This document shows positions 7,850 through 50,150 of a stretch of 64,000 nt of DNA, one piece after another. This stretch comes from Turritopsis dohrnii (lineage: Eukaryota > Cnidaria > Hydrozoa > Anthoathecata > Oceaniidae). Below the pieces are notes generated by a model. It had not been told where the DNA came from and did not search any database. It saw only the letters and a program-made list of their open reading frames with translations. The stretch is taken from positions 186,001-250,000 of the forward strand of contig BQMF02000018.1 in assembly GCA_027922465.2 (NCBI GenBank), given 5' to 3'. Positions within the stretch are counted from its first letter, which is position 1. Each line of letters begins with the position of its first letter. Made by a program: the position numbers and the translations under genes.

Positions 7850-10800
7850 ATGGTGGCTCCAAAATGTGGTCACTGCTACAAAGCTGTTGCAATCACTCAT
7901 CGATATTTACCCTGTGGAATTTGTCAAAAGATTTTTCATATAAAATGTGGCAATATCAAGCCAAAAGATTATGAACAATATAAAATCCAAACGCCATCAG
8001 TGAGTTGGACCTGCCAGTCTTGTGGATTGATGGGCGCAGGGGTAAATGTGGCCGTTGAACCAAGTCGGCTGGCCTTTAGGGAATTGGTCGGTGACATCAG
8101 AAAGTGTCGGGGTTTATCGGTCGAACATATTAACATAAACGGAATTTATACAAAACGTAATCAAATTAAGCTACTTCTTGAAGAAACTGATATTGACATT
8201 CTGGCAGTTTCTGAGACACATTTACACAGTGGGATTGATGATGGCGAAATCACAGTCAAAGGCTATGAACTGTTGAGACGAGACAGAGTGTCTGATACTG
8301 GTTGGGGTGGTGTCTTAATTTATCATAAAACCCCTTTAAATGGTATTGAATTTGATATTAATGTAAATGATCTCGAAATGCTTTGGATCGAATGTACGGT
8401 AAAATCTCAAAAGATTTTAGTTTCGTGCCTTTATCAGCCACCAAGAAACAAGAAAACATTTCTCGCAAAATTTGACCAAATTATGGACGTTGTCAACCAG
8501 AAGAGAACAAATTTTGCCATCCTCGGAGACTTCAATATTGACTTGATTAGCGACAACAACTCAGTTTATCAATTCAACACACTCCTAAAGAAACACCGAT
8601 TGTGTAATATCGTAAAAGAACCAACACGAATAACCGAAAACACAACAACCTTGATTGACCATATCATAATTCCAAAACATTGCGATTCAAAAATAAAAAA
8701 CACTCATGCCATTGATCTTGGCTTATCTGATCATCATATAGTATATTGTACAATTGATATTTTGAAAGAAAGGAGCAAACCTATCTACAAAATTGTAAAA
8801 AACTACAAAAATGTTGATGTTAAACAACTTAAACATGACATCAGATCAGCACCTTGGCATATCTGCGACATATTTGATGATGTGGACGACATTGTTTCCA
8901 CTTGGGAAGAGCTATACAAATCAGTTATCAACGCTCATGTGAAAGAAAGGAAAGTGAAACTTAGAGCTAAAACACACCCTTGGATGAACAGTGCCATTAG
9001 AAAACAGCTAAACCAACGTTATAAACTATTAAAACTAGCTCAAAAAACTCCTAAAGGCTCACATGAATGGGAACTCTATAAACGAGCCAGGAATTATTGT
9101 ACTAACTTGCTCAGAGTAGCCGAAGCTAATCATTGGAAGGAGAAATTCAAAAACCTGAACTCTTCTAGCAAGGAATTCTGGAACTGTATAAACGAATTCA
9201 CAGGAAAATCAAAATCTAATCAAATCGGACCATTAGAAGACCCAGCTGGTCAAATAACCAATGATAACCAAGTTAAAAGTGAAACCTTAAACGACTTTTT
9301 CGCCAATATTGGTAAAATCGACAAGGACCCAAACAATGCAATGTTACAGTCCCACATTTATCGTATTACACCTACTATCAATGAAGTAGCCTACAGTCGA
9401 GACGATTTATCATCAGCTTTTAAACAAGTGTTCAAGCCAAACAAAGCTGGAGGTCACGATGGCATCAGCTCAAAAGTTGTTAGAATGATAGGTGAAGATA
9501 TTCTTGATGGTATACACTACATAGCTAAAGGTAGCTTCAGTTCACTCAAATTCCCTACTTCTTACAAAACATCTAAAGTGAGCTGTATCTTCAAAAAAGG
9601 CTCCAAAGTTAAAAGCGAAAACTATCGACCAATATCATTGTTGTGTCTCCCAGGAAAGGTTTTGGAATCAGTTTTCTCATCACGTATTGACTCACACATA
9701 TCCCATCACCAACTTCTGAGTAAACACCAGTGGGGATTCCGAAAAGGAAGATCACCAGAACTAATGCTTCTACGGTTAACTGAAAAACTGTCTCATCATT
9801 TGATTGAAGGAAAATATGTAGGGATGATTTTTATTGACTTCAGCAAGGCATTTGATAGTGTATGGCACACAACACTCCTAAAAAAGCTGCAGGCCATTGG
9901 AATCAGTGGCGATTCGTTCGAATGGTGTAGTAGTTACCTAAAAGACAGGCAGCAATTTACCATCGTCAATGGCTCTAAATCTGGTTTAGCATCAGTTGAC
10001 CAAGGAGTACCTCAAGGTTCTCTCTTAGGTCCTCGCTTCTACTCTTGTCATGCAAACGATCTACCTGATACCGCTGAAGATACCGTAGATCAAGAGGATG
10101 AAGACCAAGTCGAAATGTTTGCTGATGACACGAATGGTATCACCATCGCATCAAATTATGATATACTAATCGCTCAAATCCAAGATCTTTGCAACCGGCT
10201 TCAGAAATGGGCGAAACTTAATGGGATGATCATCCACCCAGGAAAAACCAAAATAATTGTCTTATCTCGAAGACAATTTATCGGCCCAACTGCTAGCGTA
10301 GCACTTGAAAATCGCCACATCGAAATTGTTAAAAACCATAAAGTATTGGGTACCACCATCGACAACAAGTTAACTTGGAAAGCTCACACTGATAAAGTTA
10401 TTACCAAATTTAAGGTTAAGGTCAAGCAACTCAAACGAATGCAAGCCCTTAGCAGCAAAGTTCTTGAGGACTTTTACTTCAGAACTGTAATACCATCCGT
10501 CACATATAATATCTCTATCTGGGGTAGCTGTCATAAAAGTTATATTGATGCACTAGATGAGATTCATGCAAAGGCAGCAAAAGTAATACACCACTTGCCA
10601 TACCAGTTGTCAACGTTCGATACACTTGAAAAAGTGAAATGGATGTCAATATCGTATCTGTACAAACGACGTCTTCTTTGTTTAATGCACAAAGTTTATT
10701 ACAAAACAATCGACCCTGAAATTGTGTCAATGTTTAAGTATGCTAATCCTTGCAGAAGATTTCGTCGTGAAAATCAATTGGCTGTTACTGCCGATCATGG

Positions 10801-10981
10801 AAATAAAAACTGTTTTTCTTACAAAGGTGTTAGGATCTGGAATTGCATGCCAAATGAACTCACTGGGATTGAATCACATTTGCTTTTTAAACAAACTCTA
10901 TCGGAATATAAAGAACAAATAAACTCTTACTCTTTTGAATATGACACCTTTCATATCCATAGGGATTTTATTTTCCTTTAA
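7850..10981 (+). CDS. LINE ORF: PHD finger, APE endonuclease, reverse transcriptase
   Basis: A 1043-aa non-LTR retrotransposon polyprotein that nicks target DNA and copies its own RNA (target-primed reverse transcription). Residues about 5-60 form a Cys4-His-Cys3 PHD-type finger (CGHC, CGIC, H, C, CQSC). Residues about 85-305 are an APE-type endonuclease with the catalytic signatures NINGI, SETHLH, GDFNID, IDH and SDHH. The RT core spans about 540-830, with catalytic Asp663 in FIDFSKAFDS and FADD at 757-760. The C-terminal part (about 840-1043) includes the usual His/Trp-containing region and GVRIWNCMP. There are no stops or frameshifts. A separate ORF1 is not visible; the PHD region may stand in for it. 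The ATG at 7850 directly precedes the PHD domain. Confidence 0.93.
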   Translation: MVAPKCGHCYKAVAITHRYLPCGICQKIFHIKCGNIKPKDYEQYKIQTPSVSWTCQSCGLMGAGVNVAVEPSRLAFRELVGDIRKCRGLSVEHININGIYTKRNQIKLLLEETDIDILAVSETHLHSGIDDGEITVKGYELLRRDRVSDTGWGGVLIYHKTPLNGIEFDINVNDLEMLWIECTVKSQKILVSCLYQPPRNKKTFLAKFDQIMDVVNQKRTNFAILGDFNIDLISDNNSVYQFNTLLKKHRLCNIVKEPTRITENTTTLIDHIIIPKHCDSKIKNTHAIDLGLSDHHIVYCTIDILKERSKPIYKIVKNYKNVDVKQLKHDIRSAPWHICDIFDDVDDIVSTWEELYKSVINAHVKERKVKLRAKTHPWMNSAIRKQLNQRYKLLKLAQKTPKGSHEWELYKRARNYCTNLLRVAEANHWKEKFKNLNSSSKEFWNCINEFTGKSKSNQIGPLEDPAGQITNDNQVKSETLNDFFANIGKIDKDPNNAMLQSHIYRITPTINEVAYSRDDLSSAFKQVFKPNKAGGHDGISSKVVRMIGEDILDGIHYIAKGSFSSLKFPTSYKTSKVSCIFKKGSKVKSENYRPISLLCLPGKVLESVFSSRIDSHISHHQLLSKHQWGFRKGRSPELMLLRLTEKLSHHLIEGKYVGMIFIDFSKAFDSVWHTTLLKKLQAIGISGDSFEWCSSYLKDRQQFTIVNGSKSGLASVDQGVPQGSLLGPRFYSCHANDLPDTAEDTVDQEDEDQVEMFADDTNGITIASNYDILIAQIQDLCNRLQKWAKLNGMIIHPGKTKIIVLSRRQFIGPTASVALENRHIEIVKNHKVLGTTIDNKLTWKAHTDKVITKFKVKVKQLKRMQALSSKVLEDFYFRTVIPSVTYNISIWGSCHKSYIDALDEIHAKAAKVIHHLPYQLSTFDTLEKVKWMSISYLYKRRLLCLMHKVYYKTIDPEIVSMFKYANPCRRFRRENQLAVTADHGNKNCFSYKGVRIWNCMPNELTGIESHLLFKQTLSEYKEQINSYSFEYDTFHIHRDFIFL

Positions 10982-22360: not shown

Positions 22361-22496
22361 TACACAAAATTAACGTGGGAATTAATCATCGTGGATTTTA
22401 AAAATCCGCGCTAATTTAAACCGTGTTAATTTGTGCCCCGCGTAATTTAACCGCTCATTAATAATTAATGTATCGTGTAATATAATCACTCGTTAT
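22361..22496. other. Short intergenic piece of a TTAATT-rich repeat
   Basis: Contains CCGTGTTAATTTGTG and a CGTGTAATATAA block resembling 33070-33190. No gene. Confidence 0.4.
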
Positions 22497-22567
22497 TGGA
22501 TTTCTGCGAAAGCAAGAAATACTTTAAAACCGGCTTTGTTTTTCTTTTTTTCTTTTTTTTTTTTTTT
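22497..22567 (+). repeat. Helentron-type hairpin mini-unit with T tract
   Basis: ATTTCTGCGAAAGCAAGAAAT forms a hairpin with a GAAA loop and one bulge, followed by ACTTTAAAACCGG and a long T run that abuts the Helentron 5' end at 22568. Close relatives occur on the minus strand at 40770-40817 and 50099-50143 and in the 48-bp arrays. Confidence 0.6.
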
Positions 22568-23165
22568 CTGCTGTCCAAACCTAGCGGTATTTTGTATATT
22601 TCGTGCGTTTGTTTACATGCATTCATTACGTGCATGCGTAAAGGCATTTTTCGGTTGCACGAGGTCTCTTCCACGAGAAATTTCCAGCGACTGGTTGTAA
22701 TTGGACTGCGGTAAGAAAGAAATCGAAAATTCTCTTCTCAAACTTCGGCATTTGAAACTTTTATTGTTCGGAAGGCTTTCCTTAGTGCTTATTTATCCTC
22801 CATTTGCTTTCTTGGAGGCTTATATCCGGGGGCATCGGAATAAAAGTGAGGTCTGTGAAGTTTGTCAGCAAGCCCCTAGCTGACCCCTAGCGAAACCCAG
22901 CTGATCCTAGATAATCCTAGATAATCCTAGCTGACTTAACAAAGCATTGAAGCAAACTTGAAAAATACCAAACTAGCTCTTGAAATACCAAACATATTAC
23001 AATATCATATTGCATACCATTTATATAATATATCGTATTATTATATTGTCAGTTTTATCTGACTACATACAGCAACATTCGTATTATATTGTCAGTTTTA
23101 TCTCACTAAATATTTACAACAACTAATATTCCTGTGCATTTGCATTTACATCTCTTATTATTAAC
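22568..23165 (+). promoter_or_regulatory. Helentron 5' leader / presumed promoter region
   Basis: About 600 bp before the ATG. It carries a short repeat AGATAATCCTAG / AGCTGATCCTAG near 22895-22935. The first roughly 410 bp recur, inverted, as the 5' part of the non-autonomous element at 39743-40752. Transcription signals are not demonstrated. Confidence 0.5.
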
Positions 23166-26100
23166 ATGATTACTGTTGACCAATGGCGTGCAGCATGTGG
23201 CATTTTTTATTGTAAAGTACGTACAGACAGTGTGTATGTAAATCACTTTGAACTGTTATTGTTAATTATGCATAACTTTTGTATTGTTACGTTACGATTA
23301 ATTTATTTCATCGGAGTTATTATTGATTTAACCTTTCTAAAAAATATTGAACTTCTTGTTGGCGGCGATATTGAAAGTAATCCTGGCCCAACTTATAACA
23401 TAGTTAAATTGACTAAGGCATCTTTCCATCAAGGAAATCCTATGTTTGGTGACAGTGCTGGTATGCAGTGTGCATGTAATACATTGTTGAGTTTGTGTTG
23501 GTCACAATTCAAACGAATGTCTTTTTGGAAAACAACTGACCTAGATTTTGTAATGATCAAAGGAAATGAATTATATCAACAACTGAATTTGTCACGATAC
23601 CTATCAGTTGATGATTTACCTCCTCAAGTCTCTATAGAAAACAATAATTACACTGTGAAATATGGAGAGAATGTTACAGCAGAAATTGCTGAAGGCAGAT
23701 ATGACTTTATGAAATCTTTCAAAGAATATTCTCCTGAATCCAATGGCATCCTGTTCTTTGTTAACCAAATGACATTCAGCATAACTTGGGATACAAAATC
23801 GTTCTATTTGTTTGATTCGCACAGTCGAAATGAATTGGGCATTAGTATTGAAGATGGCACTTGCATTTTGTTAAAGTTTTCTAGCCTCTCGCAACTTCAA
23901 AAATATATCAGTGCAGTACAATTACATGACCGTGGACATGTGTTTTGTCAAATACAATATGTTTTGATAGAAATGGAAGAAGCATTTCCTACAATTTCTA
24001 AAGGTGGTGCAGCAAAGAAAAGAAAACGTAATCTATCAAAAACGCTTGAGCCTGATAACCATGAACAGATGTTAAAGCAAAAGTACATTAAAACACAAGG
24101 AACTCCTAAACATGCAAATAAATTGAAAGCCATGCGAGATAAATATTTGGAAAGTAAAGGCACACCGGAACATTCAGAAAAATTAAAAGACTTGCATCAT
24201 AAATATAAGGAAAGCAAAGGAACTCCTGAACATGCTGAGAAATTAAAAGCCTTGCATCATAAATATAAGGAAAGTAAAGGAACTCCTGAACATGCTGAGA
24301 AATTAAAAGTCTTGCATCATAAATATAAGGAAAGCAAAGGAACTCCTGAACATGCTGAGAAATTAAAAGCCTTGCATCATAAATATAAGGAAAGCAAAGG
24401 AACTCCTGAACATGCAAATAAATTGAAAGCCATGCGAGATAAATATTTGGAAAGTAAAGGCACACCGGAACATTCAGAAAAATTAAAAGACTTGCATCAT
24501 AAATATAAGGAAAGTAAAGGAACTCCTGAACATGCTGAGAAATTAAAAGCCTTGCATCATAAATATAAGAAAAGTAAAGGAACTTCTGAAAATTCAGAGA
24601 AATTGAAAGCAATGCGAGATAAATACATGAAGGGCAAAGGAACTTGTGAGCATGCTGAGAAATTGAAAGCCTTACATCAGAAATATAAGGAAAGTAAAGG
24701 GACTCCTGAACATTTGGAAAGGTTAAAACGAAAAAGAGAAAGATATTCAATGATGAGTCTATCTACCTTGAAAGCTGCAAAACGTGTTAAAACATTTAAA
24801 GACATGATAATTCAAGGGCCGTATTACATATGTGTTGTTTGCAATCGTTGTTTGTATAAACGATCTGTTGTATTATTCAATGAATGTAATTATGCAATTG
24901 TTTCTAATAGTTTTCAATTTTCACTTGTGGAAAGCTTTGATGGTTACCAATACATATGCAAAACTTGTCATCTGAAGTTAAAAAGAAAGAACATCCCAGT
25001 TCAAGCTGTTTGCAACAATCTCGAAGTTGATAATCTTCCGTCTGATCTTTCTGAAATCAACCGATTGGAGAAAGTTTTGATAGCTAAACGAATTCTTTTC
25101 AAGAAAGTTGTAATTCTACCCAAAGGCAATTTTCCAAAAGTAAAAGGAGCCATTTGTAATGTACCAATTGAGGCTGAAGATGTCTGTAATGTTTTACCAA
25201 GACCAGCCGACAGTAATGGCTTACTTTTGTTGAAATTAAAAAGGAAACTTATGTACCGTGGACATGTCTACTTTGAAGCTGTTCGACCTGAGTTAATTCT
25301 GAGATCTTTAAATTTTTTGAAAGAACACAACCCATTATACAGCAATGTTATTGTTGATTTGAATAGTCTTTCTGAAGAACTGATCAGCTTTTCGAACGAG
25401 AATGAAAATATTGATCTGAACTCAAGCCTTTCACAGGAAATGGATGAAGAGGATGATAATCCATTAGACGCTGACAGAACTGCTACTAATGAAACATTCA
25501 TGGCCTCCAAAGTACCTATTCATGTCAATGAAGACACAGTTACTATTGCACCAGGTGAAGGTGTTACTTCAATTCCAATTTACACAGATAAATTTTGTGA
25601 AGAGATGGCTTTTCCACACCTGTTTCCTTTCGGCAGATTTGGATACAATACTGATCGGGAAATAAAAATTTCACTTGTAAAATACTTTAACCAAAGATTG
25701 TTAAATTATACTCAAAAATTTTCTTCTGATGCTGATTATATATTTTTTGCTAATTATCTCCTTCTGTCAACAAATTTACATAGCAAGATAAATATTGCAA
25801 TGAGGAAATTATCAGGAAGTAGACTAACAGCCGGTATGTTGAGTCAAAGTTTCAGCGAAACTGTTCGGACTTTCATTGCTAATGATGAAGCATTTAACTT
25901 CATGAACCAAATTAAAGGCACCCCAGCATATTGGAAAAGGTTTTTGCTTGAAGTATTAGCTATGGTGAAACAACTTGGCGTTCCAACATTTTTCTTGACA
26001 TTATCATGTGCAGATCTGAGGTGGTTCGAGTTGCCTTCTATACTGTCAAAATTGTATAAAATGAATTTGCAGGATGATGAAATTCAAAACATGACATACC

Positions 26101-29100
26101 AAGAAAGATGTGAAATGTTGAACATGAATCCTGTTTTTCTGGCAAGGCATTTTCAGTATCGAGTGGAAACATTTTTCAAGGAAATTGTCTTAGCTGGTCC
26201 ATTAGGAAAGGTTGAATATTACGTAATTAGGGTTGAATTTCAAGTACGTGGAAGCCCACATGTTCATGTATTTATTTGGATAAAAGACCCACCCATATTA
26301 ACAGAAGCTACTAAGGATGATTATATTGCATTTGTTGATGGAGCCATAAGAGCTGACATGCCTGATCCTGAATTAGAACCAGAATTGTTTGAGTTGGTAA
26401 AAGCATACCAAGTACACAATCACTCCAAAACTTGTCGCAAGTACAAAAATAGTACATGCAGATTCAATTTTGGTCATTTTTTTACAGATCGTACTATCAT
26501 TTCTAGTCCACTTCCTGTTGAGGTGAGCCCTGATGACAAGGAAACAATATTAGAAAGTAGAAAAGCACTGTTAGATACTGTGAAAAGTTATATCGACGAA
26601 TATCTATGTCCTAAGAAGCATAATGTTATTGATCCATTGAAAGATAATTATGAAGATGCTGGAACTATTTCAGATATTTTGGATAAACTCGGCATAACCG
26701 AAGAGGAATATTACACTGCACTCTCAATTTCTAAAGATAATGACTTTGAAATTCACCTTAGACGCCCACCAAATTCTTGTTTTGTCAACAACTATTTTGC
26801 GGAAGGTTTGACTGCATGGGAAGCAAATTTGGACATTCAGCCTGTCTTCAATCACTATAAAGCCATAACCTACATGTGCAAATATCTTTCAAAGGCAGAA
26901 GATGATTGTTCCAGAGCAATGAAACAAGCGTTGGATGAGGCTAAGTCCAATAACTTGAACAAATTTGAACAAATGCTTACAATTGCAAAAGCATATTCAT
27001 GTAAAAGAGAATGCTCTGTGCAAGAAGCTGTGTATCATGTAATGCCTGAATTGTGGTTGCGTAAAACATTCCCAAAGGTCATTTTTGCCAATAGCAATGT
27101 TCCAGAAAACAGATTTCGAATTTGCAGATCTGAAGAGGAGTTAAATAATCTTCCTGATGAAAGTACAGATATTTTCAAAACAAACATGTTAGATCGTTAT
27201 CTTGACCGACCCGATAGTTCTTTCAAAAATGGAAAGTTTGCAACTCTGAATAGCATGTGTTTTGCTGAGTTTTTGGCACATTATTATTTGGAATGTAAGT
27301 CCGATGCTAGCAATGGAAATGATAACCAGCCTGAAATTTTGAATGAATTGCTAATGGAAGAAAACCATCCGTCACCACACCCCCCAGTTGTACCATTGAT
27401 GAACAGTAAATCTAAATTAAAATGCAGGAAAATCCGTGCAGTTTTAAGGTATCACATTCCAAACAGGCACAAATATCCAGAGAGATATGCTCATCATTTG
27501 TTGTTCATGTACTATCCTTTTCGATCAGAGGCTGAACTATTACACAATACTTATGTTGAAAAGCTTGGTCAACCTGGTGTTCTGGACATTGTAAATGAAA
27601 ATAAATCAAAGATTGAACCATACGATGAACTAGTAAATGATGCTTTCCAAAACTACAGAGCTGACCTCGATGTGACTTCCGATCCATTTGCACAACAAGA
27701 GAATGAGGCTGTCCAAGATATTTTGGATGCTAACAATGACATATCTGATGAGGAAGATTTTCAAGATACACCATGTGCAACATCAGGAATTATCCCTGAA
27801 AGGCAATATGTTTTAGATGATAATGTGTTGAATGACAAAATCCGATCACTCAATATGAAACAGAGAGAAATTTTTGATATTGTGTTAACATGGTCGCGGC
27901 AACTTGTCAAGAGGAGAAATTGTAAGGAATTCAATGATCTTAAGCCATTGCATATTTTCTTAACAGGCCAAGGTGGTTGTGGAAAATCACATCTATTGAA
28001 AACTATCTATCATGTTGTATCAAAGGTCCTACTTCGCAAAGCAACAGATCCAGCAAAACCAAGAGTCTTATTGCTGGCACCTACAGGTGTAGCTGCTGTA
28101 AACATTGCAGGTACTACCATACATTCCGGCCTTGGTATTTATGGTAAAAATTATGCACCGTTAAGCGATAAGATGAGGACATCCCTGCGTAATAAACTTT
28201 CTGAAGTGTCTGCTGTGATAATTGATGAAATATCCATGGTTTCCGATGAATTATTGAAAAATGTTCACATGCGGTTATGTGAGATATTTGGTGTAAGTAT
28301 TCAGATTCCTTTTGCAGGTAAAACTGTCATTGCTACCGGAGACTTTTTTCAGCTGCCACCCGTAATGGGAAGACCTGTTTATTCACCATATGGCTTTGTA
28401 GAGAATTTATTGAAATTATGGGACACTTTCAAAATTGCTGAATTAACAGAAGTGATGCGACAACAAGGAGATTCCGTATTCATTGATTTGTTAAACAATG
28501 TGCGTGTTGCCAATATAACAGCTGATGACGAAGATCTTCTTAAAACAAGATTTATTAGTACTAATTCTCCCGAGTATCCAGTCGACGCCCTTCATCTATT
28601 TGCTGAAAATAAACCAGCTATGGACTATAATGAGAAAAAATTAAGAGATTTAGAAAATTCAGATGTTGTGATAAACGCAATCGATGACTTACCAAAAGAT
28701 GTTCCTCATCGACTCATCAGTGATGCTCTCAATAGAAAACACACTGAAACCGGTGGTCTACCGACGAAGCTTGTTTTAAAAATTGGTGCTAAAGTGATGC
28801 TCACATCAAACATAGATATAGAAGACAAACTGATCAATGGCCAAATGGGCATAGTATATAACTTCATAACAAATGGTAGTAAGGTTTCAAAAATTTATGT
28901 TAAATTCCTTGATGAAAGTGCTGGCATTATGAAAATGGCATCTGACAGATACGCTGTGATCCATAAGTGTGTTCCGATTGAACGTGCTGAGACTGATATT
29001 AATATCAACAAAAGAATAACCACATCACCTGTGATAAAAAGAACACAATTTCCCTTAGTTTTATCTTGGGCAACGAGTATTCATAAAGTACAGAGTTTGA

Positions 29101-29948
29101 GTGTTCCTGAAGCTGTTATTAGCTTTGACTTACAAAAGCAAAGGCGGTTTAATCCTGGTCAAATGTATGTTGCAATGAGTCGAGTTACTAGTTTATCTGG
29201 CTTGTATTTAACTGGAAAGTTTGACAAAAATGCCATTAAGGCCGACAAAAGAGCTTTCACGGAATATGAACGGATGCGACAAGCTTGTCCATTGCCACGG
29301 TTAGAGACGCTTGAACCATTGTGTCCGAATTCTTTAAGTATCAGTATGCTGAATACTCGTTCATTGTCATTGCATGCAAAAGATATTGCTTGTGTAAATG
29401 AACTGGTAGAGAGTGATGTTTTATGTCTTACTGAGACACAAATGTTGCAACATGACGATTGTTCTGAGATATGTGGGCTGTTGGATTTTGAAATAACATT
29501 CTCTGTTGGAGATGATAAATACCAGAGCTTGGCAATTGGATTAAAAAATCATGACATTTATTCATGCTCAACTGAATCTGGCTTTTTATATGTTAACGTT
29601 TTAAAACACAGTTTTTGCAGTGATTTGGTTGGAATTGCGGTACTGTACAGGAAACATGGTGAACCATTGCAACTTTTTTACAATAAGTTATCTAATTACA
29701 TCCATTCTTTTGATATTGACATTCTGCTTGGTGATTTAAATATTGATTATTTTACGTCTAGTGATACTCTTTCAGAAATTCTTAGCGATTACAAGATGGT
29801 TGTAACTGAGCCGACTTATATTGATGGGTCACTACTTGATCATGTTTACATCAAAAAGAGCTTCCTTGCAAATTTCAAGTTAGATACAATGGTAAAGTGC
29901 ATTTTTTTCTCAGACCATGATGCAATCAAGGTAAAAATTTCAATTTAA
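23166..29948 (+). CDS. Helentron protein: 2A site, protease-like domain, repeats, Rep, helicase, endonuclease
   Basis: A 2260-aa Helentron protein for rolling-circle-type transposition, with an uninterrupted frame. In order: hydrophobic leader (about 29-66); 2A-type motif GDIESNPG/P at 67-75; putative cysteine protease at about 80-270 with Cys102 (GMQC) and Asp217-x-His219 (DSH), resembling the peptidase C76 (herpesvirus tegument deubiquitinase) arrangement; a basic stretch; eleven 20-residue repeats (about 302-522); CxxC pairs near 550-620; a Helitron_like_N region from about 800; HUH His1032/His1034; Rep tyrosines Tyr1236 and Tyr1240 (YMCKY); PIF1 Walker A GQGGCGKS 1601-1608, Walker B IIDE ending at 1688, GDFFQLPP and the C-terminal helicase motif VAMSRV; and an APE endonuclease from about 2058 (LNTRS, TETQ, GDLNID, LLDH, SDHD). 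All key catalytic residues are present. Met1 and Met35 both precede the 2A site; either may start translation. Confidence 0.93.
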   Translation: MITVDQWRAACGIFYCKVRTDSVYVNHFELLLLIMHNFCIVTLRLIYFIGVIIDLTFLKNIELLVGGDIESNPGPTYNIVKLTKASFHQGNPMFGDSAGMQCACNTLLSLCWSQFKRMSFWKTTDLDFVMIKGNELYQQLNLSRYLSVDDLPPQVSIENNNYTVKYGENVTAEIAEGRYDFMKSFKEYSPESNGILFFVNQMTFSITWDTKSFYLFDSHSRNELGISIEDGTCILLKFSSLSQLQKYISAVQLHDRGHVFCQIQYVLIEMEEAFPTISKGGAAKKRKRNLSKTLEPDNHEQMLKQKYIKTQGTPKHANKLKAMRDKYLESKGTPEHSEKLKDLHHKYKESKGTPEHAEKLKALHHKYKESKGTPEHAEKLKVLHHKYKESKGTPEHAEKLKALHHKYKESKGTPEHANKLKAMRDKYLESKGTPEHSEKLKDLHHKYKESKGTPEHAEKLKALHHKYKKSKGTSENSEKLKAMRDKYMKGKGTCEHAEKLKALHQKYKESKGTPEHLERLKRKRERYSMMSLSTLKAAKRVKTFKDMIIQGPYYICVVCNRCLYKRSVVLFNECNYAIVSNSFQFSLVESFDGYQYICKTCHLKLKRKNIPVQAVCNNLEVDNLPSDLSEINRLEKVLIAKRILFKKVVILPKGNFPKVKGAICNVPIEAEDVCNVLPRPADSNGLLLLKLKRKLMYRGHVYFEAVRPELILRSLNFLKEHNPLYSNVIVDLNSLSEELISFSNENENIDLNSSLSQEMDEEDDNPLDADRTATNETFMASKVPIHVNEDTVTIAPGEGVTSIPIYTDKFCEEMAFPHLFPFGRFGYNTDREIKISLVKYFNQRLLNYTQKFSSDADYIFFANYLLLSTNLHSKINIAMRKLSGSRLTAGMLSQSFSETVRTFIANDEAFNFMNQIKGTPAYWKRFLLEVLAMVKQLGVPTFFLTLSCADLRWFELPSILSKLYKMNLQDDEIQNMTYQERCEMLNMNPVFLARHFQYRVETFFKEIVLAGPLGKVEYYVIRVEFQVRGSPHVHVFIWIKDPPILTEATKDDYIAFVDGAIRADMPDPELEPELFELVKAYQVHNHSKTCRKYKNSTCRFNFGHFFTDRTIISSPLPVEVSPDDKETILESRKALLDTVKSYIDEYLCPKKHNVIDPLKDNYEDAGTISDILDKLGITEEEYYTALSISKDNDFEIHLRRPPNSCFVNNYFAEGLTAWEANLDIQPVFNHYKAITYMCKYLSKAEDDCSRAMKQALDEAKSNNLNKFEQMLTIAKAYSCKRECSVQEAVYHVMPELWLRKTFPKVIFANSNVPENRFRICRSEEELNNLPDESTDIFKTNMLDRYLDRPDSSFKNGKFATLNSMCFAEFLAHYYLECKSDASNGNDNQPEILNELLMEENHPSPHPPVVPLMNSKSKLKCRKIRAVLRYHIPNRHKYPERYAHHLLFMYYPFRSEAELLHNTYVEKLGQPGVLDIVNENKSKIEPYDELVNDAFQNYRADLDVTSDPFAQQENEAVQDILDANNDISDEEDFQDTPCATSGIIPERQYVLDDNVLNDKIRSLNMKQREIFDIVLTWSRQLVKRRNCKEFNDLKPLHIFLTGQGGCGKSHLLKTIYHVVSKVLLRKATDPAKPRVLLLAPTGVAAVNIAGTTIHSGLGIYGKNYAPLSDKMRTSLRNKLSEVSAVIIDEISMVSDELLKNVHMRLCEIFGVSIQIPFAGKTVIATGDFFQLPPVMGRPVYSPYGFVENLLKLWDTFKIAELTEVMRQQGDSVFIDLLNNVRVANITADDEDLLKTRFISTNSPEYPVDALHLFAENKPAMDYNEKKLRDLENSDVVINAIDDLPKDVPHRLISDALNRKHTETGGLPTKLVLKIGAKVMLTSNIDIEDKLINGQMGIVYNFITNGSKVSKIYVKFLDESAGIMKMASDRYAVIHKCVPIERAETDININKRITTSPVIKRTQFPLVLSWATSIHKVQSLSVPEAVISFDLQKQRRFNPGQMYVAMSRVTSLSGLYLTGKFDKNAIKADKRAFTEYERMRQACPLPRLETLEPLCPNSLSISMLNTRSLSLHAKDIACVNELVESDVLCLTETQMLQHDDCSEICGLLDFEITFSVGDDKYQSLAIGLKNHDIYSCSTESGFLYVNVLKHSFCSDLVGIAVLYRKHGEPLQLFYNKLSNYIHSFDIDILLGDLNIDYFTSSDTLSEILSDYKMVVTEPTYIDGSLLDHVYIKKSFLANFKLDTMVKCIFFSDHDAIKVKISI
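23364..23390 (+). other. 2A-like ribosome-skipping motif
   Basis: Encodes GDIESNPGP, matching the consensus D-(V/I)-E-x-N-P-G-P. It follows a Leu/Ile-rich stretch (IELLVG), as in active 2A peptides. Skipping would occur between Gly74 (23385-23387) and Pro75 (23388-23390), releasing a peptide of at most 74 residues and leaving Pro at the N-terminus of the main protein. Activity is an inference from the motif. Confidence 0.85.
24065..24735 (+). repeat. 60-bp in-frame tandem repeat (eleven units)
   Basis: Exactly 60-bp units coding KYKESKGTPEHAEKLKALHH and variants (MRDKYLESKGTPEHSEKLKD). A three-unit block is itself repeated almost identically at 24113-24235 and 24413-24535, pointing to recent unequal exchange. 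The product is charged, Lys/Glu-rich and likely helical, located between the protease-like domain and the zinc motifs. Confidence 0.9.
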
Positions 29949-32627
29949 TTTTGTTTTGTTTTAAATCTTAATAAAATGATTAATGTTCAGCAATTTAATA
30001 TTTTCTAGTCACTTTTTGTATAATTCATGTTTGATGTATAATTATTTATCCAAGTCATTGTAAGTTATTCAAATCATTTTCTAATACTAGTCTATTACCT
30101 GCTTGTTTTATTGATGCACAAAGTGAAGAAGGTAAAGCATATTGTCCAAGCAATGTTTGATTTGCATTCAAGGTTGTAATTTAATTAATTGAAGTTGTTT
30201 AGTTATTCAAAATAGTGAAGGTTGTACATGACTATGGAAAGCTGTTGACAAGATCCTGTGGCTGTGTGTGTATCTGTGTGTGGGTGGGTGTGGTATTTGT
30301 GTGTTTTATGTATATGTCTACAGCAGGGACAGTTACATGTTCTATTTATGTATGAAGTGGAATGAAAGACAGGTATAATCTGTTTGATCTCATTAGGGTC
30401 TTATTAAGTACGTTATCTGTCTCTGTTGTTTTAGTTGTCTTTGTGGGTTGTTTAAAATATTTTTGTGCTGTTTAAATTGTAAAATTGAAGTTGAACACTT
30501 TTTGAAGTTTTTTGTTTATTTGCAGATGATTGAATTTGTAATTATTTTTTGTCTTATCTTTTCAGATCTGTTAAGATGGCAGTACCAAATCATGTTTAAT
30601 GAAATATTTCTTATAGTTGCCCATTTCTGCGATATCAATTGAATGGACTCATGCACCATCAGTTTAGATTTATATTCAATTCATGTAAATATTAATGTCA
30701 AAAATTTGTGAAAATTTATGCATGAATTTAAGTTGGAAATTAATTGTAAATATCTGAATTTTAATTTTATATTTTTACACTAATACAATTTTTGAGAGGG
30801 TTGTCAGTGGTTGTGTATGTGGTGGTCATAAAATGCTCCATTTTTCTCAAACAAAGGAACCGGATGTGAAATTTTTCTACAAAATATGTGAATTTCAATT
30901 TCAGTTAATTTCGCAATGTTTCTTATTTTCTCTAATTTCACAGTGTAAGTATAGCATTTTATGATCACACTGTGCTTGCATGTTAAACTAACGTGAGGCG
31001 ATCATCATTTCTCTTCTAATATACGTTCCAATAGCCCACACAGAAAAGAAATAGTTTTGCACTGCTGAATGGTGATCTTTTCGCATTGGTTTAGATGTAT
31101 GTTGTGCCACAGGAGTTGACCAAAAGAGATAGTAATATAAGTAATCATCAGAGTTAAAGATTTGAAATGCACTTCCAGAAAATCTACATTTTGTCTTCAG
31201 TGTTTGTTAATGTTGTAAAAATTGTGAGTTAGTGATTGTGCCACCCTCTCTATTTTTTATTGGATAGGGAAGTAATTTTAACTAATTTAATCAATTTTAA
31301 TATTTATTCAAAAGAATTTGTAAATTATTGAATGTCTTCGTGAGATGGAAGTGTAAGCCTTCGTTCCAGTCGTAATCGGTGAAGTATAATTGCAAGAACT
31401 GATGTGTGTATGCAAATGTTGACGAACTGTGTGAGAGCAAAATGTGACGTTTATTACGGAATGATATTGTCGTTGATTAAAGCTGCCGTATTGTATTCGC
31501 CTTCATGGTTCTACATGTTATTCGAAGGGGATTCCAGAAAAGATGCTAAAATGTATGTGAAAGATTAACTTTGATTGTTATGTGATATACTTTCGATATT
31601 TATTAACTGTATTTTTTCTCTCTTTTAGACGGCCGTCTTAACCTTTTTGGTTGTGTACGATAACAGGCAAATGAAAATAAATGATGTTTGATATGAACAT
31701 GACAGAATTTTCTGGATGGACGAACTTGAATTTCGATCGATGTTTTAAGCATGCGTACCAAATATATCCTCCGACACAGATATTCGACCGTGCTGTATAT
31801 CTTTTATATGTAACAATGTATACTACTTCGTGCAGCTCGTTTGTTCGTTACACACGAAACTTGGCATTGATGAAGTGGTTCAAATTCCTGTATAGATGTA
31901 TTCAAGATAATGATTATGAAGGCTGTTTCAACAACAAAATATACTCCTTTTGTCTCTCGCATTTTGGAGTAAATAATGCTGTCAATCACGAAGAACTCAT
32001 TTAATTTATATTTGTATCAAAATTTATAAAAAATGATATCAAATTGTTACTTTTGTTTTGTTTTTGTTTTTTCGTATCCGCTGGTACCTAATTTCTTTTT
32101 TTGTTCAAGTAATTTGAGTGGAAAATGTTCGAACCCGAAGAAATGAACTGAAATATGAACTTTTCAATGACTGGACCAAAAGGGGCGGTGCTATATAAAA
32201 CAACGGCGTTTGTAATAGCGTTTGCATGAGATTGGGTGTGAACAAATATATTTCGTCACCCGTCCCGCCTAGTTATATGATGGTACTGCCTGTTCGTGTC
32301 TTTGGAACAGACATGTCAACATTTCAAAACGTGAAAAAGGCAGATTTAATTTGTGGTTAAGACGGCTATGCGCAGCGTTGTAGTGATGATGTCCACCACA
32401 TGATATCAGGGCGGCCTGAGCATATGCAGACCTGCACATAAACTTAATACAGGGTGAAAATAAACAAGAAAAGTGGAATTAAAAAGAACTTATAAATTAA
32501 AATTATAAATTTACATTTCGTTTAAGTTGATGTTTGTCAAAATAATTGAAAAGTTTTAAACCGTAGGAAACAAGGGAAAGCGTCAAGGCTGCTGGTTTTG
32601 CATTTCTGTGTATTTTCAGCAAATCTT
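29949..32627 (+). other. Helentron 3' noncoding region
   Basis: About 2.7 kb between the stop codon and the terminal hairpins. It contains a GT-rich tract (30255-30310), a small inverted repeat with arms TCATAAAATGCT / AGCATTTTATGA at 30829-30964, and one 107-aa ORF (31681-32004) of doubtful status. It could hold captured host sequence. Confidence 0.55.
31681..32004 (+). CDS. Possible small ORF in Helentron 3' region, unknown
   Basis: A 107-aa ORF starting MMFDMNMTEFSGW, Cys- and Tyr-rich, with CSSFVRYTRNLALMKWFKFL and CLSHFGVNNAVNH. No family is recognised. A pyrimidine tract ending TTTTAG lies about 50 bp upstream (31621-31629), which could be a splice acceptor, so this may be a captured exon or a chance ORF. 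It is the only ORF over 100 codons in the 2.7-kb tail. Confidence 0.25.
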   Translation: MMFDMNMTEFSGWTNLNFDRCFKHAYQIYPPTQIFDRAVYLLYVTMYTTSCSSFVRYTRNLALMKWFKFLYRCIQDNDYEGCFNNKIYSFCLSHFGVNNAVNHEELI

Positions 32628-32654
32628 GCAGAAATCCTTCTGCCCGTAAGGGCA
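32628..32654 (+). other. Helentron 3' terminal double hairpin
   Basis: Two overlapping hairpins: GCAGAA-ATCC-TTCTGC (32628-32643) and TGCCC-GTAA-GGGCA (32641-32654). They share TGC, so only one can form at a time. The second lies five bases from the 3' end and corresponds to the Helentron subterminal hairpin that signals termination of strand transfer. Confidence 0.7.
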
Positions 32655-32659
32655 TCTTG

Positions 32660-33952
32660 TTTTGTAATATTTTTCAATTTTTGGAAGAAAATTGTTGAAA
32701 TGCAGTAAAAACAATCGGTTTTCTATTTTTTATGACAGCTATTTAACGGAATATATATAAAAATACAAACATAACGAGTCACTCGCACAGTTTGAAACCT
32801 GACCACGCCAAAGTTATAAGCGGTATCTGGGATTACCTGAGTTCAGAGAAAGGAAAAGCAATAAATAAAGGCTAGATGGAAGGCAGCTGGGATACGAGAG
32901 GCATTAAAAGATGCAAGATTAAATGAGAAGCGCTTTGAACCATTAGTATAATCGCAGACATTAGCACGCCTACTGTTTGTATTTAGTTTTCGTTTTTGTG
33001 TTTTATTATGTAGACTGGTAACTCTGTAAACATTGAAGCTTTTGATTTCCTTTAAAAATTACAATCTTTGAACCGTGTTAATTAAAGTCCACTTTCAGAA
33101 AGCCTCTTCGTGCATCCGCGTTAATTTGTGACCGCGTTAACTTATGGCGCGTTGAATAGTCCGCTTGTTAATTTCGTGTAATAAGGTATAACTTTTTTAA
33201 GGAATTTTCACTACTACGTGTGAGTTAATTTTTCGTCAGGGGGTTTGCACACGGAAAAGGTGAATTTGACACATTCTTTTCGAAGTTAAACTCGATAAAA
33301 ATTTTGGGTTGAATGACATTAAAACAAGACGTTAACATCAATGTGTCCCAATTTGAAAGAGTAAAAAGATTACGTATAATATGATTCTCTGTTCTTGCAC
33401 TATACGCTATTTCACTGTATTCTTGCTATTACAGGTGAAATTTTAATGAGCAAACAGAAGAAAGACGAGTAGATTACAACTTATAACTAGACTAGCAACT
33501 GAAATGTTGCTGAAGCTTCTGTAACTGTAAGCTGAAGCTTTTGTAACTGCAAGCTGAAGCTTCTGTAACTGCAGAGGTTTTTTTGTGATGTTACCATTAC
33601 GCTACAGGTCTGAATGACAATATAATGAATTTACAAACAACAAAGGTAAAAGGTAAAATTCTGAAAGTTTTTCCGTCCGAAAATTTTGGATTTAATGAAT
33701 TTTGTAGAAATAAGTTTTTGGTTGATTTGGGGTCTGATAAGTAGTGGCGTGCTTCAAATATCCTTTCAAAGGAGAAGCCCAAAGCTGCTCAGCAATGGCC
33801 GCTCAAAAGCATTTTAGAAGAAGTGCCTCGCATCAAAGATATCAAAGGCACGAGGTACGAGACGATTTATTACTATTAATGTAAATACATCATTTTATAC
33901 ACCGTTGCAAAGAAAATCTATATGCTCTACACGAATTCACGAAATAATTCAA
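32660..33952. other. Intergenic, no gene recognised
   Basis: AT-rich. 33070-33190 resembles the flank at 22380-22490 (CCGCGTTAATTTGTG and related blocks). Three 22-bp tandem copies of GCTGAAGCTTCTGTAACTG-type sequence lie at 33509-33574. No convincing CDS. Confidence 0.45.
33509..33574 (+). repeat. 22-bp tandem repeat, three copies
   Basis: Units at 33509, 33531 and 33553 share GCTGAAGCTT(C/T)TGTAACTG and differ only at one internal and a few terminal positions. Confidence 0.85.
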
Positions 33953-37653: not shown

Positions 37654-38313
37654 AGATGCCCTGACAGGCATAAGGATTTCTGCGAAACCAGCTGAAGCAT
37701 AAAAAATGAAAGACTAGTGACATTCTTCAAATTTGAAGATTGAATGACTTCTACAATACAACATCACATTTTTGATCACACACTCCCTAGGAAACCATGA
37801 AAGCATAACTGATATTATATATACAGATCAAAAATAGATAGAACAAAAATAAAACTATAACAGTTAATCCCGCTAGAAAGTTTGTCAACTTTTGTTCCAA
37901 GGGATGATGGAAATTTACCTTTTAAAAAGTGTAAATAGGACTTAACTAAAAACAACAGATGCTTTTACATACAAAGAAAAGAAATACGCGTAAGGTGCGA
38001 ATCGTAACCATGGATACACATTTTATAAGACAGTTTTTTTAAAAAAGAAACGATGTAAGAGCTAAAAGAAAAAAAAAAAAACTTTTTTGAAAAAAAAAAA
38101 TTAAGAAACAAAGTAAAAGGGAAAAACTCATCAGAAATACTTTGTTTAAAACTAACTACGTATCTACCTAATCTAGCTACTAAGCATTTAAAAATATAGC
38201 TTTTAAAAAGTTTAACTATGAAAAATACTAAAATACTTTATAAAGAATGTTTTGGTAGTTTTCATGTAAATGTACGCACGAAATTTCAAAAAACCGCTAG
38301 GTTTGGACAGCAG
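37654..38313 (-). mobile_element. Non-autonomous Helentron, array unit a
   Basis: On the minus strand it starts CTGCTGTCCAAACCTAGCGG and ends in a GGCAT-CTT-type 3' end (plus strand AAGATGCCCTGACAGGCA). Only about 50 bp at the 5' end and the 3' terminus match the autonomous Helentron. No coding sequence. Confidence 0.7.
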
Positions 38314-38333
38314 AAAAAAAAAACAAACAAACA

Positions 38334-39742: not shown

Positions 39743-40752
39743 AAGATGCCCTTGCAGGCATAAGGATTTCTGCAAAACCAGCTGAAGCATGAAAACCCTA
39801 GAAATCTATGAAAGCATCAATGATACATACTATAGATCCAAAAAATATTAAAGCTCCTCTTTCCTGTTGAGCATTTTGAACACTTTACACACAAACGTTA
39901 ACAAGATTTTATACTACTTTTATGGTTATGGAGAGACGATTGCTTAATGAATGAAACTTTAAGTACAAAATGAAAGTAGTTTTTTCTTGAAAACAAACAT
40001 ATTATATACTGTAGATCAAAAATAGATAAGACAAAAATACTTTTAAAAAGTGTGAATAGGGCTTAACTAAAAACAACATAAGCTATTACATACAAAGAAA
40101 AGAAAGGTGCGAATCGTAACCATGGATACGCGATTTATATGACAGTTTTTTAAAAAAAGAATCTATGTATAAGAACGAAAGAAAAAAAACACAAACATTT
40201 TCGAAAAAAATATAAGAAACAAATTAAAAAATTTATCGGAAATACTATGTTTTAAAGTAACTACGTATCTACCTAAGCTAGCTACGAAGCATTTAAAAAT
40301 TTTACCTTTTAAAAGTTTACCTATGAGCCACTTCGATGAATTTTTGTATTTCTCAAGCTTGCCTCAAAGCTTTGCTTGGTCAGCTAGGATTATCTAGGAT
40401 AAGCTAGGATAGGCTAGGAAGCTAGGGTAAGATAGGATCAGCAAGAGGCTTGCTGACAAACCTCACACAGACCTCACTTTTACTCCGATGTACCCAGATA
40501 TAAGCCTACAATTAAGCAAATGGGAAGATAAAAAAGCACTAAGAAGAAAGCTTACCAAAAGATAGAAGTTTCAAATACCGATGTTAGAAAAGAAAGTTTT
40601 CGATTTCTGTATTACCGCAATTACAACCAGTCGCCAAAAATTTCTCGTGGAAGAGACCTCGTGCTACGAAAAATTGGCTTTCCGCATAGATGTAATGAAT
40701 CCATGTAGGCGCACGCACGAAGTTTCAAAAAACCGCTAGGTTTGGACAGCAG
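39743..40752 (-). mobile_element. Non-autonomous Helentron with the autonomous 5' leader
   Basis: The minus-strand 5' roughly 410 bp (40752 down to about 40340) align with 22568 to about 22975, the leader of the autonomous Helentron, including the TCCTAG repeats. The remainder resembles unit a, and the 3' end is AAGATGCCCTTGCAGGCA inverted. It is a direct deletion-type or chimeric derivative of the autonomous family. Confidence 0.78.
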
Positions 40753-40832
40753 AAAAAAAAAACAACAAAAAAACAGAGCCGGTTTTAATGTATTTCTTGC
40801 TTTCGCAGAAATCCAAAAAAAAAACAAAAACA

Positions 40833-46141: not shown

Positions 46142-47634
46142 AAGATGCCCTACCGGGCAGAAGTATTCCTGCGGATGACTGTAAGACTTTCTGGAGCCTT
46201 TTCAGAAAGAAATGAGTGTTAGTTCACGCTTTAAAACCATATGCATAATGCGGAATGATGTTTGCAGTATTTTACATTTTACCTTTTAGCTTCGATAACT
46301 ATTAAACTCTGTTGTTTCATATAAAATTTCAGTCTTGCATCAATTTCGAGATTTTTTTAAAAACATTTCCATTCGAAGTTGTACTCCCTAAAGCATCTTC
46401 AAGAAGCAATTAACTAATTAAAAGATTATCGTGTTAAGAATAATCTGTGCTTTAAAAGGTGAATGTGAAAGAAGTAATATTTGTTATTTCTAGAAACTGC
46501 ACTGTTTTCATCATTTAGAGATTTTTTCAAAAACTTTTTTATTCATAGTTATATTCCCTAAAGCATCTTCAAAAAGTAATTAAGTAATGAAAACTTTGTC
46601 ACATTAAGTTTTGAAGGGAAAATCTGTGGCGTAAATAGTAATAACTTCTAATTCATTTAATTACATTCCCGAAAGCATCATAAACGTTAAGAGACTTTGA
46701 AAAATTTTGCCGGAGATCAAGCTGAAAAAGGAACACCGTCAGTTTAAAAATCCATTAGAGAACACTCTTCCGTGGACGTTTCAAAATACTACTTTTAAAA
46801 CTATACAGTATGAAAATCTTTATGTTGTTTGTACCTGAACTTCATAATAAAAACTTTTACTTGGCCTTGCGAAATAATAAAAATATCTGTGTTTCCTTTT
46901 TATCGTCAGCTTGATAGTATACAAATTTTAAAAGCATACAATATTCTAAATTCGACTAGTCAATTAAAAAAGTGGTCATCTATTGATTAATAAAATGGGT
47001 ATAAGCTGATGAGGAAGATAAGCTGTGCTTCAAGATTCCAGAGCTTTATAAAAACAGGGTAGCTTATCTAGGAACATGAATTAAAAAATTGTATTACATT
47101 TAGAAAGACTAATAGAAACCTTACGCATTAAATCGATATAAACATACCCTATTGGTAGTCGTTCATATCTGTTTTGAAGCATCAAGAACTGCTTATTTGT
47201 CAAGAATGACTACTAAGAATATTAATTTCACGTAGATTATCAGCTTGGATCATAAATGTTCTTGATTCTTTTAAGTTTTACAGCTGTACTACAACCTCTT
47301 CTATATCCATATATTCAATAAAGAAACTTTCACAGATCTACGCATGTTTCTTCGCTTCCATTTTTAAAACAACTACGGAAAACTTAAGAAAGTTGCATAA
47401 GACTCACATGAAACAACATTTCTACCTGGCATCTGCGATTTAGCCATATGTTAGTTATTCCTTTCACTAGAGCTTATATTTTACACTTTTAGAGTCTTTT
47501 CAAGCAAAGTACTTGTATACAATGAATATAGTGTGAGTTTAGACTGTTAAATCATAAAAAGAATGTAAGTTGGGAACATCAATGATTTGAGTGGCTATTT
47601 CCCATCGACAAAAATTGGTCTAGGTTTGGACAGT
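46142..47634 (-). mobile_element. Non-autonomous Helentron, tandem unit 4
   Basis: Nearly identical to unit 3, including the shared deletion. It ends CTAGGTTTGGACAGT followed by a long A tract and a 48-bp minisatellite instead of another full unit. Confidence 0.85.
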
Positions 47635-47667
47635 GAAAAAAAAAAAAAAAAAAAAAAACAAAAAAAA

Positions 47668-47850
47668 CACGAACGGTTTCAAAGTATTCCTTGCTTACGC
47701 AGGAATACAAAAAAACACGAACGGTTTCAAAGTATTCCTTGCTTACGCAGGAATACAAAAAAACACGAACGGTTTCAAAGTATTCCTTGCTTACGCAGGA
47801 ATACAAAAACACGAACGGTTTCAAAGTATTCCTTGCTTACGCAGGAATAC
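47668..47850 (-). repeat. 48-bp hairpin minisatellite, four copies
   Basis: Exact 48-bp period (starts 47668, 47716, 47764, 47812). Plus strand CACGAACGGTTTCAAAGTAT, then TCCTTGCTTACGCAGGAATAC and an A run. On the minus strand each unit is a hairpin (TTCCTGC-GTAA-GCAAGGAA with one bulge) followed by ACTTTGAAACCG and a T tract, the same layout as a Helentron 3' end. The overlapping ORFs in three frames are artefacts. Confidence 0.9.
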
Positions 47851-47859
47851 AAAAACAAC

Positions 47860-49305
47860 AAGATGCCCTTGCAGGCATAAGGATTTCTGCAAAATCAGCT
47901 GAAGTATGAAAAAAGAAAGATTACGACATTCTTGAAATTTAAGAAAAGTTTAATCCGCAATATATATTTATTAAATTTCTGATCATGTACTCCTCAAAAA
48001 TCTGGAAAAACATAATTGCCACTATGCAAAACTTTATACCAATAAACATCAATAAACTTGATTATATCTGAATGACATATGTTCTTTATTTTGATGGTAC
48101 GAAATGATATTAAGGATTCAGTGATCAATTCAGATAAGACAATGAGTATGCATGTAAGTCAATGTAAATGTTATGAATTTAATATGTATTGTCAATCTTC
48201 CTAAAACAGAATTCCTAAGGACAAAAAGGAAAGCGTAGATTTTAATGATACGAAATACATACAAAATCAACATACATAACTGAAACTTAAACCTAAAAAC
48301 TTGGAAACTTAAAAAAAACATTAAATTTTTAATTACGCATACACCCCAGGAAATTCTTAAAGCACGACTGACACAATGTGAAACTTACGTTAACTGCCAA
48401 TAAACTTAATGAACAAAAGAACAATAAATCTAATTAGATGCTGTGAAAGATATCACATTGATTACGTAAGTCTTTCCATATATACGGTCAATCTTCCTAA
48501 TAACGAAAAGACTTCCCAAACAAAAAAAGTCAACAAAGATTTGGATTAATTAAATATGTGATCCAAATTAGCAAACATAACTGAAAGCAGTTAAAATTTA
48601 CAGGCAGTCGAGATAAGTTTCCTATTTGCTATCGTAAATAGCAAGTCCTGTTCCTAATTAAGGGCATTAATGATAATACAGCCAAGAACTATACAAGTAA
48701 ATATGCTAACATATCTCTAGAGAAATATCAAACATAAAATGATGCAGGCAGAGGCTAGACAGATGTTCTTGTTGGAGCTGAAGAGGAAACTGAGCTGAGC
48801 TGTACGTATCCAGAACTTAAAAGGCATTACAGCCCACAGATGAAACAAACGAGCTTTTGTATTTAGAAAACCTCAAAAGAATACCAGACATTTTCAAAAA
48901 AAACCAAAAACCTTTCCTTTTTGACACACTGTTTTTATAAAACATTGAGAACTTGTTTTTAAAAAAGAATGAACACAGTAGAATCTTTGTAAGATAATTA
49001 TAAATTTTTACCCTCTACTCTCGGTCTTGGAACTGTAAATCTATTCAACATCGATTGATCAATCAACTTTTGGAAGTTTCTTCGGTCACGCTGTAGTGTA
49101 CCATTATGCAAATGGCGTGCAAATGTAAGTCGAAAAAAATACCCGGATGATCACATGGCGGAAATTCAAGCCAATAAACTAGCGCTATTAAAGTTAATTA
49201 GCACCCTTTCGTAATAGTGGCGCTTCATGCACCAATGAACTTTGAGACGGCGGCTGTATGAACCAATGAACTTCGAAATAAAAAAAATCGCTAGGTTTGG
49301 ACAGT
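47860..49305 (-). mobile_element. Non-autonomous Helentron, array unit (type B2)
   Basis: Collinear with 38334-39733 (shared AATATATATTTATTAAATTT, GATGCAGGCAGAGG and TTTCTTCGGTCACGCTGTAG). Same termini: AAGATGCCCTTGCAGGCA on the left, GCTAGGTTTGGACAGT on the right. Differs by small indels, for example an extra segment near 48845-48890. Confidence 0.8.
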
Positions 49306-49324
49306 AAGATGAAAAAAAAAAAAA

Positions 49325-50150
49325 AAAACTAAGAAAAACAAAGACGATCGTAAAGGCTTTCTTGCTTACGCAGAAATCCAAAAAACACGAACGGTTTCAA
49401 AGTATTCCTTGCTTACGCAGGAATACAAAAACAAAAAAAACACGAACGGTTTCAAAGTATTCCTTGCTTACGCAGGAATACAAAAACCAAAAAAAACACG
49501 AACGGTTTCAAAGTACAGTGGAACCTCTATTAACGGTCACCTCCATACATCGGTCACCTCCTGATAAGCGGCCAGAAAAGAAAGTCCCTGCCGAATTTAT
49601 GGTCAAACTCTTATAAAAAAACCTCCATACATCGGTCACCTCCAATCAACGGCCAAACGGCCACTTTCTATTGTCCCAATGTCTAATTTTACCTCTATTA
49701 ACGGTCAAAAAAATCGTTACGCAAGCAAATGAATGTAAAAATAAAAAAATAAATAATTATTTACAAAAATAAAGTCAAGTCACGCAGCCTTATCTATTGT
49801 AGATGATTTGAACAACTTTTGTGAAACATTAGGTGGTGCTGACTTAGTAAGTGCTTTAAATCTTGTCACACAACGACTTGAAGCACTTAGGCTCAATAAT
49901 GTTGTGTTTATTTTGATCATGAATCATTCTTTATAACCCTCCCATCCTGACCAGCCTTTTTGATAAAAAAAGTATATTCATATAAAACCTCCATACATCG
50001 GTCACCTCTAATGCAACAGCCACTAAGCTGGGTCCCCCAAAGTGGCCGCTATTAGAGGTTCCACTGTATTCCTTGCTTACGCAGAAATCCAAAAAGAAAA
50101 ACAAAGCCGGTTTTAAAGTATTTCTTGCTTTCGCAGAAATCCAATAAGAT
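49325..50150 (-). repeat. Hairpin mini-units at the array end, one split by a MITE
   Basis: Further copies of the roughly 48-bp mini-unit with variable A tracts (CACGAACGG starts at 49386, 49441 and 49497), plus variants AAGACGATCGTAAAGGC and AAAGCCGGTTTTAAAG. The unit at 49497 is interrupted after AAAGTA by a 551-bp element and resumes TATTCCTTGC at 50067. Confidence 0.8.
49516..50066. mobile_element. 551-bp pogo/Tigger-type TIR element
   Basis: Termini CAGTGGAACCTCTATTAACG and its inverse (AGAGGTTCCACTG), flanked by TA (49514-49515, 50067-50068). The interrupted 48-bp unit gives the empty site. CAGTGGAACCTC-type ends are characteristic of pogo/Tigger elements of the Tc1/mariner superfamily. 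Subterminal CATACATCGGTCACCTC recurs three times. At about 49804-49936 a short open stretch reads DDLNNFCETLGGADLVSALN..., ending at a stop, possibly a remnant of transposase C-terminus. Confidence 0.82.

Follow-up and report, generated by a model that had tools for sequence, protein, structure and literature searches.

The subject of this article is a Helentron-type transposable element in a 64,000-nucleotide stretch of the Turritopsis dohrnii genome (assembly GCA_027922465.2, contig BQMF02000018.1, positions 186,001 to 250,000 of the forward strand), which as a whole is called the window and to which all coordinates refer. The long open reading frame (ORF) of the element carries the sequence GDIESNPGP close to its N-terminus, and it is very probable, judged from sequence, that this is a conserved 2A (StopGo) motif by which a 74-residue leader would be set free, followed by a separate deubiquitinase-Rep-helicase protein. 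In the proposed mechanism the ribosome would release the leader peptide at GDIESNPG/P and would then continue to a second product starting from Pro75, in which a predicted tegument-like deubiquitinase domain (VTD) is fused to Rep and helicase. An earlier note on this DNA had described an intact ORF of 2260 residues with GDIESNPGP at residues 67-75, and both were found exactly there (Table 1). The motif agrees with the 2A/StopGo consensus D(V/I)ExNPGP and is the single occurrence of [DGCN][VI]ExNPGP in the six frames of the window. The same note expected a separate Rep/helicase protein from Pro75; Rep and helicase are indeed included in the predicted product, but it opens with the VTD.

Conservation of the motif was followed among other genomic copies of the element. 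The copy search covered the 436-Mb genome and 21 of the 3730 first-look candidates were scored, therefore the number of Helentron copies is a lower bound. The 21 copies examined, the window copy included, had been selected by whole-protein similarity irrespective of 2A, and D[IV]ESNPGP stands at residue 68 in all of them, the permitted exchange of I and V being the sole variation; absence of the motif from other intact copies, a possibility which the earlier note had considered, was not encountered. Fifteen distinct N-terminal coding sequences were compared codon by codon, ungapped and in pairs that are not independent, and the ratio of nonsynonymous to synonymous differences (pN/pS) was 0.18 for the leader, 0.08 for the 2A and 0.20 for the VTD. 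Since the value of the leader, at a synonymous difference (pS) of 0.26, is close to that of the VTD (pS 0.25), selection acts on the leader peptide, as it does on the 2A, and the simplest reading is that the leader is translated and maintained as a peptide.

The motif is also widespread among more distant relatives. With two homology searches 74 further proteins were collected, and of the resulting 75 (the window's included) 41, distributed over 20 of the 51 clusters formed at 70% identity, contain the 2A core; with a mean of 0.0 over 200 shuffles, it is not a chance match. VTD was found in 66 of the 75 proteins and 2A lies upstream of it in 40, where its usual place is just before the deubiquitinase domain: in 37 of the 40 the skip-site proline stands 5-9 residues ahead of the VTD. 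Mean pairwise identity among 12 representatives with VTD and a leader of type A (see below) was 85% in the core, 56% in the first 14 residues, 9% in the leader body, 29% in the 14 residues before the core, 19% in the linker and 35% in the VTD, that is, the 2A core is the most conserved N-terminal block across 12 families. Two proteins have two 2A cores in one N-terminus (residues 31-38 and 100-107 in P0017, 31-38 and 101-108 in P0018) and would therefore yield two leader peptides.

In the window protein the Pfam match to the herpes-tegument-like PF04843 covers residues 86-223, the VTD fold is predicted together with a Cys plus Asp-x-His catalytic triad (C102, D217, H219), and Pro75 stands four residues before the first predicted strand of the domain. 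The triad is retained in at least one matched stretch in 64 of the 66 homologs and in all 40 that have 2A. The VTD may cleave ubiquitin, and if the motif functions on host ribosomes, its purpose might be a near-native N-terminus for the deubiquitinase-Rep-helicase protein, with the leader peptide made alongside.

Leaders were sorted into types independently of 2A. Type A, which has a start motif with [YW]RxxxGxF, precedes 2A in 15/15 proteins (13 clusters), and the basic type B likewise in 15/15 (2 clusters). The 19-residue Kyte-Doolittle peak reaches 1.6 or more in 12 of the 13 type-A cluster representatives, exceeds 95% of same-letter shuffles in 7 of the 13, and ends 8-28 residues ahead of the skip-site proline; the net charge of type-B leaders lies between +24 and +32, and their peak does not exceed 1.09. 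In the window leader, which starts with the conserved MITVDQWRAACGIF, the top 19-residue mean is 2.14 (residues 40-58), and 17 residues separate the end of this stretch from the skip site. As 413 of 1000 shuffles of the leader's own letters reach 2.14, its hydrophobicity comes more from composition than from a single sharp segment, and the hydrophobic leader of the earlier note stands with this restriction. A released type-A leader would carry its hydrophobic part near the C-terminus, akin to a tail-anchored peptide, and leaders that are hydrophobic may go to a membrane.

These properties bear on the suggestion of the earlier note that, when skipping fails, the hydrophobic leader could act as a signal or anchor and bring the whole protein to the membrane system. 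Such a mechanism has been demonstrated for sea-urchin leaders, according to the accessible part of PMC4981915, and the hydrophobic peaks of type A would suit it. It is nevertheless unlikely that dual targeting explains the motif: type B retains 2A in every protein despite its basic leader, and a nuclear DNA transposase has no obvious gain from secretion. A stretch ending 17 residues before the skip site would be largely within the ribosome exit tunnel at skipping, the type-A peaks would mostly still be there as well, and the peak of the window leader is not beyond what composition gives. Dual targeting through a hydrophobic signal is not borne out as a general rule, since the motif is equally kept with basic, non-hydrophobic leaders; for type-A leaders only, it is possible.

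It appears very improbable that NPGP is a plain linker, or the remnant of a captured retrotransposon leader that has lost skipping. Retrotransposons with a similar leader are present in the genome, and 26 of the 66 VTD proteins do without 2A, but a relic would decay, yet the core is conserved throughout the copies and families compared above, with its pN/pS of 0.08. Even less credence can be given to a translation start past the leader, by which leader and 2A would be an untranslated or spurious extension: although 10 of the 26 relatives without 2A begin with Met just ahead of the VTD, the pN/pS and pS of the leader speak for selection at the peptide level, its beginning is common to 12 families, and the window copy has no Met between residue 35 and residue 93, which is already inside the VTD.

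It should be emphasized that several observations weigh against release of the leader by skipping as a general and strict feature. The 26 VTD proteins without upstream 2A indicate that the motif is dispensable for the wider family; their VTD starts at residue 2-13 in 10 cases, where the initiator Met occupies the place of the skip-site proline in other proteins, the N-terminus is cut short in 3, and 13 have longer extensions. Some Met starts in the gene models of the relatives could be prediction artefacts. The link between 2A and deubiquitinase is not strict either, because the gap between them is 58, 58 and 122 residues in the remaining 3 of the 40 proteins and the VTD is missing from P0039 despite its leader and 2A. 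(The leader of P0039 is of type A, its 2A occupies residues 66-73, and a zinc ribbon follows, with an OTU protease further in.) A quick tree, with long branches noted, was made for 63 proteins from the region between DUF6570 and Rep, both included; the distribution of 2A on it requires 8 changes, each of which may be a gain or a loss, and starred branches force 7 of these. Furthermore, 2A activity is also determined by the upstream context.

The combination of leader and 2A is found outside Helentrons as well. The DNA pattern D[VIM]ExNPGP had 740 matches in the genome versus 0 for the reversed control, and 40 of these loci were read (30 + 10): 33 lead to an apurinic/apyrimidinic (APE)-type endonuclease, 6 to VTD and 1 to neither; the endonuclease profile had three seeds, of which two belong to the 33. 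Among the 33 endonuclease loci, two (L063 and L069) have a type-A leader. Scored with a profile of 13 Helentron leaders from which the 2A core had been removed (37 of the 40 leaders were long enough), they reached 20.2 and 23.8 bits, compared with 8.7 and 9.4 for the best of 500 shuffles each, and no other retrotransposon leader scored above 6.2 bits. L069 is an intact 1165-residue ORF with endonuclease and reverse transcriptase; its family has four genome matches at 99-100% across the whole 571-residue query, self included, and for a sister family of about 55% identity there are nine places where the match begins at residue 1. The leader-2A unit is likely to be a portable module, given that a non-LTR (long terminal repeat) retrotransposon of the same genome has an intact ORF with a related leader ahead of 2A; the leader may have passed from retrotransposon to Helentron or in reverse, or may have arisen twice. 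An exchange between the two has precedent, since the Helentron endonuclease is thought to have been acquired from CR1-type retrotransposons (PMC4067079, in the part available). The retrotransposon ORFs here (L047, L049, L053, L054, L058, L060, L062, L064, L066 and L080) often start with a signal-like hydrophobic stretch and have a YYxN-type motif a little ahead of 2A: with a loose pattern the motif was present in 16/33, the hydrophobic stretch after Met in 18/33, and both in 10/33.

The classification of the window element as Helentron-type, already given in the earlier note, is supported by its organization (Table 1), with Helitron_like_N/Rep and PIF1-like helicase within one ORF and with subterminal inverted repeats, a 3' palindrome and T-rich flanks. 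Similarity to the 20 other genome copies starts at 22488-22496 for 13 of them and later for the other 7; at the 3' side, 9 of 11 copies match up to 32661-32663, and in the remaining 2 the match stops earlier. The ends match the Helentron ends given in the available part of PMC4067079, except the position of the 3' repeat, which lies 24 nt from the end versus 38-60 in the mite families. The C-terminal stretch remains under the curated cut-off of PF03372 (E 0.0089); against a LINE (long interspersed nuclear element) endonuclease of the same genome it gave 24.1 bits (E 4.6e-9 in a comparison of three sequences only), and the relatives P0035 and P0039 exceed the PF03372 cut-off at the endonuclease.

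Table 1. Features of the Helentron copy in the window
Feature	Position	Strand	Remarks
Whole Helentron copy	22496..32661	+	about 10.2 kb; T-rich sequence at both bounds
5' subterminal inverted repeat GGATTTCTGC	22498..22507	+	
ORF, 2260 residues	23166..29948	+	ATG start, no internal stop; leader-2A-VTD-repeats-DUF6570-Rep-helicase-endonuclease-like
Leader peptide	23166..23363	+	residues 1-66; conserved N-terminus, then variable hydrophobic part
2A (StopGo) core G-DIESNPG/P	23364..23390	+	residues 67-75; predicted break Gly74/Pro75
Predicted tegument-like deubiquitinase (VTD, PF04843)	23406..23975	+	residues 81-270; with catalytic triad
60-bp repeat array	24085..24718	+	in frame; 20-residue KGTPEH-type unit; between VTD and DUF6570
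DUF6570 (PF20209)	24984..25361	+	Pfam
Helitron_like_N (PF14214), Rep region	25683..26273	+	Pfam E 7.9e-29
PIF1-like helicase (PF05970)	27936..28523	+	Pfam E 7.4e-29
Endonuclease-like C-terminal stretch	29352..29918	+	weak by Pfam
3' subterminal inverted repeat GCAGAAATCC	32628..32637	+	inverse of GGATTTCTGC
3' palindrome GCCC-GTAA-GGGC	32642..32653	+	8 nt from 3' end

A shorter, diverged version of the KGTPEH-type repeat array is present in P0002. The 5' flanks of the copies L012 and L013 resemble the 3' end of another Helentron copy, and such elements may lie head to tail. Elsewhere in the window there are minus-strand pieces of the first ~480 nt of the Helentron (40342-40819, 49274-49384, 50091-50147, 47620-47713 and 38263-38327), four of the five starting at its 5' end, which are likely to be non-autonomous derivatives or fragments. 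A LINE ORF with endonuclease and reverse transcriptase at 7850-10981 is without the 2A core, and two adjoining single-ORF genes of rhodopsin-type receptors, which suggest an animal host, lie on the minus strand (52581-53975 and 54423-55664).

Compared with the 2A/StopGo sequences of RNA viruses (foot-and-mouth disease virus and others), the window motif has the same D[VI]ExNPGP core, Gly at p11 and a leucine-rich stretch upstream; viral 2As split parts of polyproteins, whereas the first product here would be a short leader of a DNA transposon. Odon et al. 2013 reportedly deals with 2A-like sequences of APE-type non-LTR retrotransposons, which likewise have the motif within a transposon ORF; these copy via RNA, whereas the Helentron of the window is a DNA transposon of the rolling-circle kind and encodes Rep, helicase and a predicted deubiquitinase. 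As far as the available part of PMC4981915 goes, 2A was already known both from non-LTR retrotransposons and from sea-urchin NLR proteins, and the 2A signal sequences of the latter resemble our case as N-terminal leaders ending in 2A; sea-urchin NLRs are host immune proteins, in contrast to a transposase-deubiquitinase, whose leader opens with a conserved motif in the window copy and is basic in a related group. VTDs in Helentrons were also known: the zebrafish DrT1 and DrT2 share with the window element the VTD fold and triad, the Rep-helicase and the endonuclease-like C-terminus, but '2A peptide' occurs nowhere in PMC9741609, nor is 2A mentioned in the passages available from it, and the VTD in the window sits directly behind 2A.

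The earlier note knew of no description of 2A in Helentrons, and our literature search found no report either, though Odon et al. 2013 and Rao et al. 2025 may contain cases; NPGP together with helitron was not found in the literature searched. According to a 2026 survey (PMC12846837, accessible in part), 2A skipping is mainly viral and rare in cells; its main text has no word starting with transpos or helitron, and 'retrotransposon' stands once, in the reference list. Set against the view of 2A as rare in cells, one eukaryotic genome has 740 matches to the core pattern, and a DNA transposon retains 2A, which is the most conserved part of its N-terminus. Researchers of 2A gain a large collection of natural, evolving sequences from outside viruses, and transposon biologists a translation step to test, with a leader peptide and a deubiquitinase with a free N-terminus as its predicted products. 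The leader-2A unit is also a concrete candidate for a coding module common to class I and class II elements.
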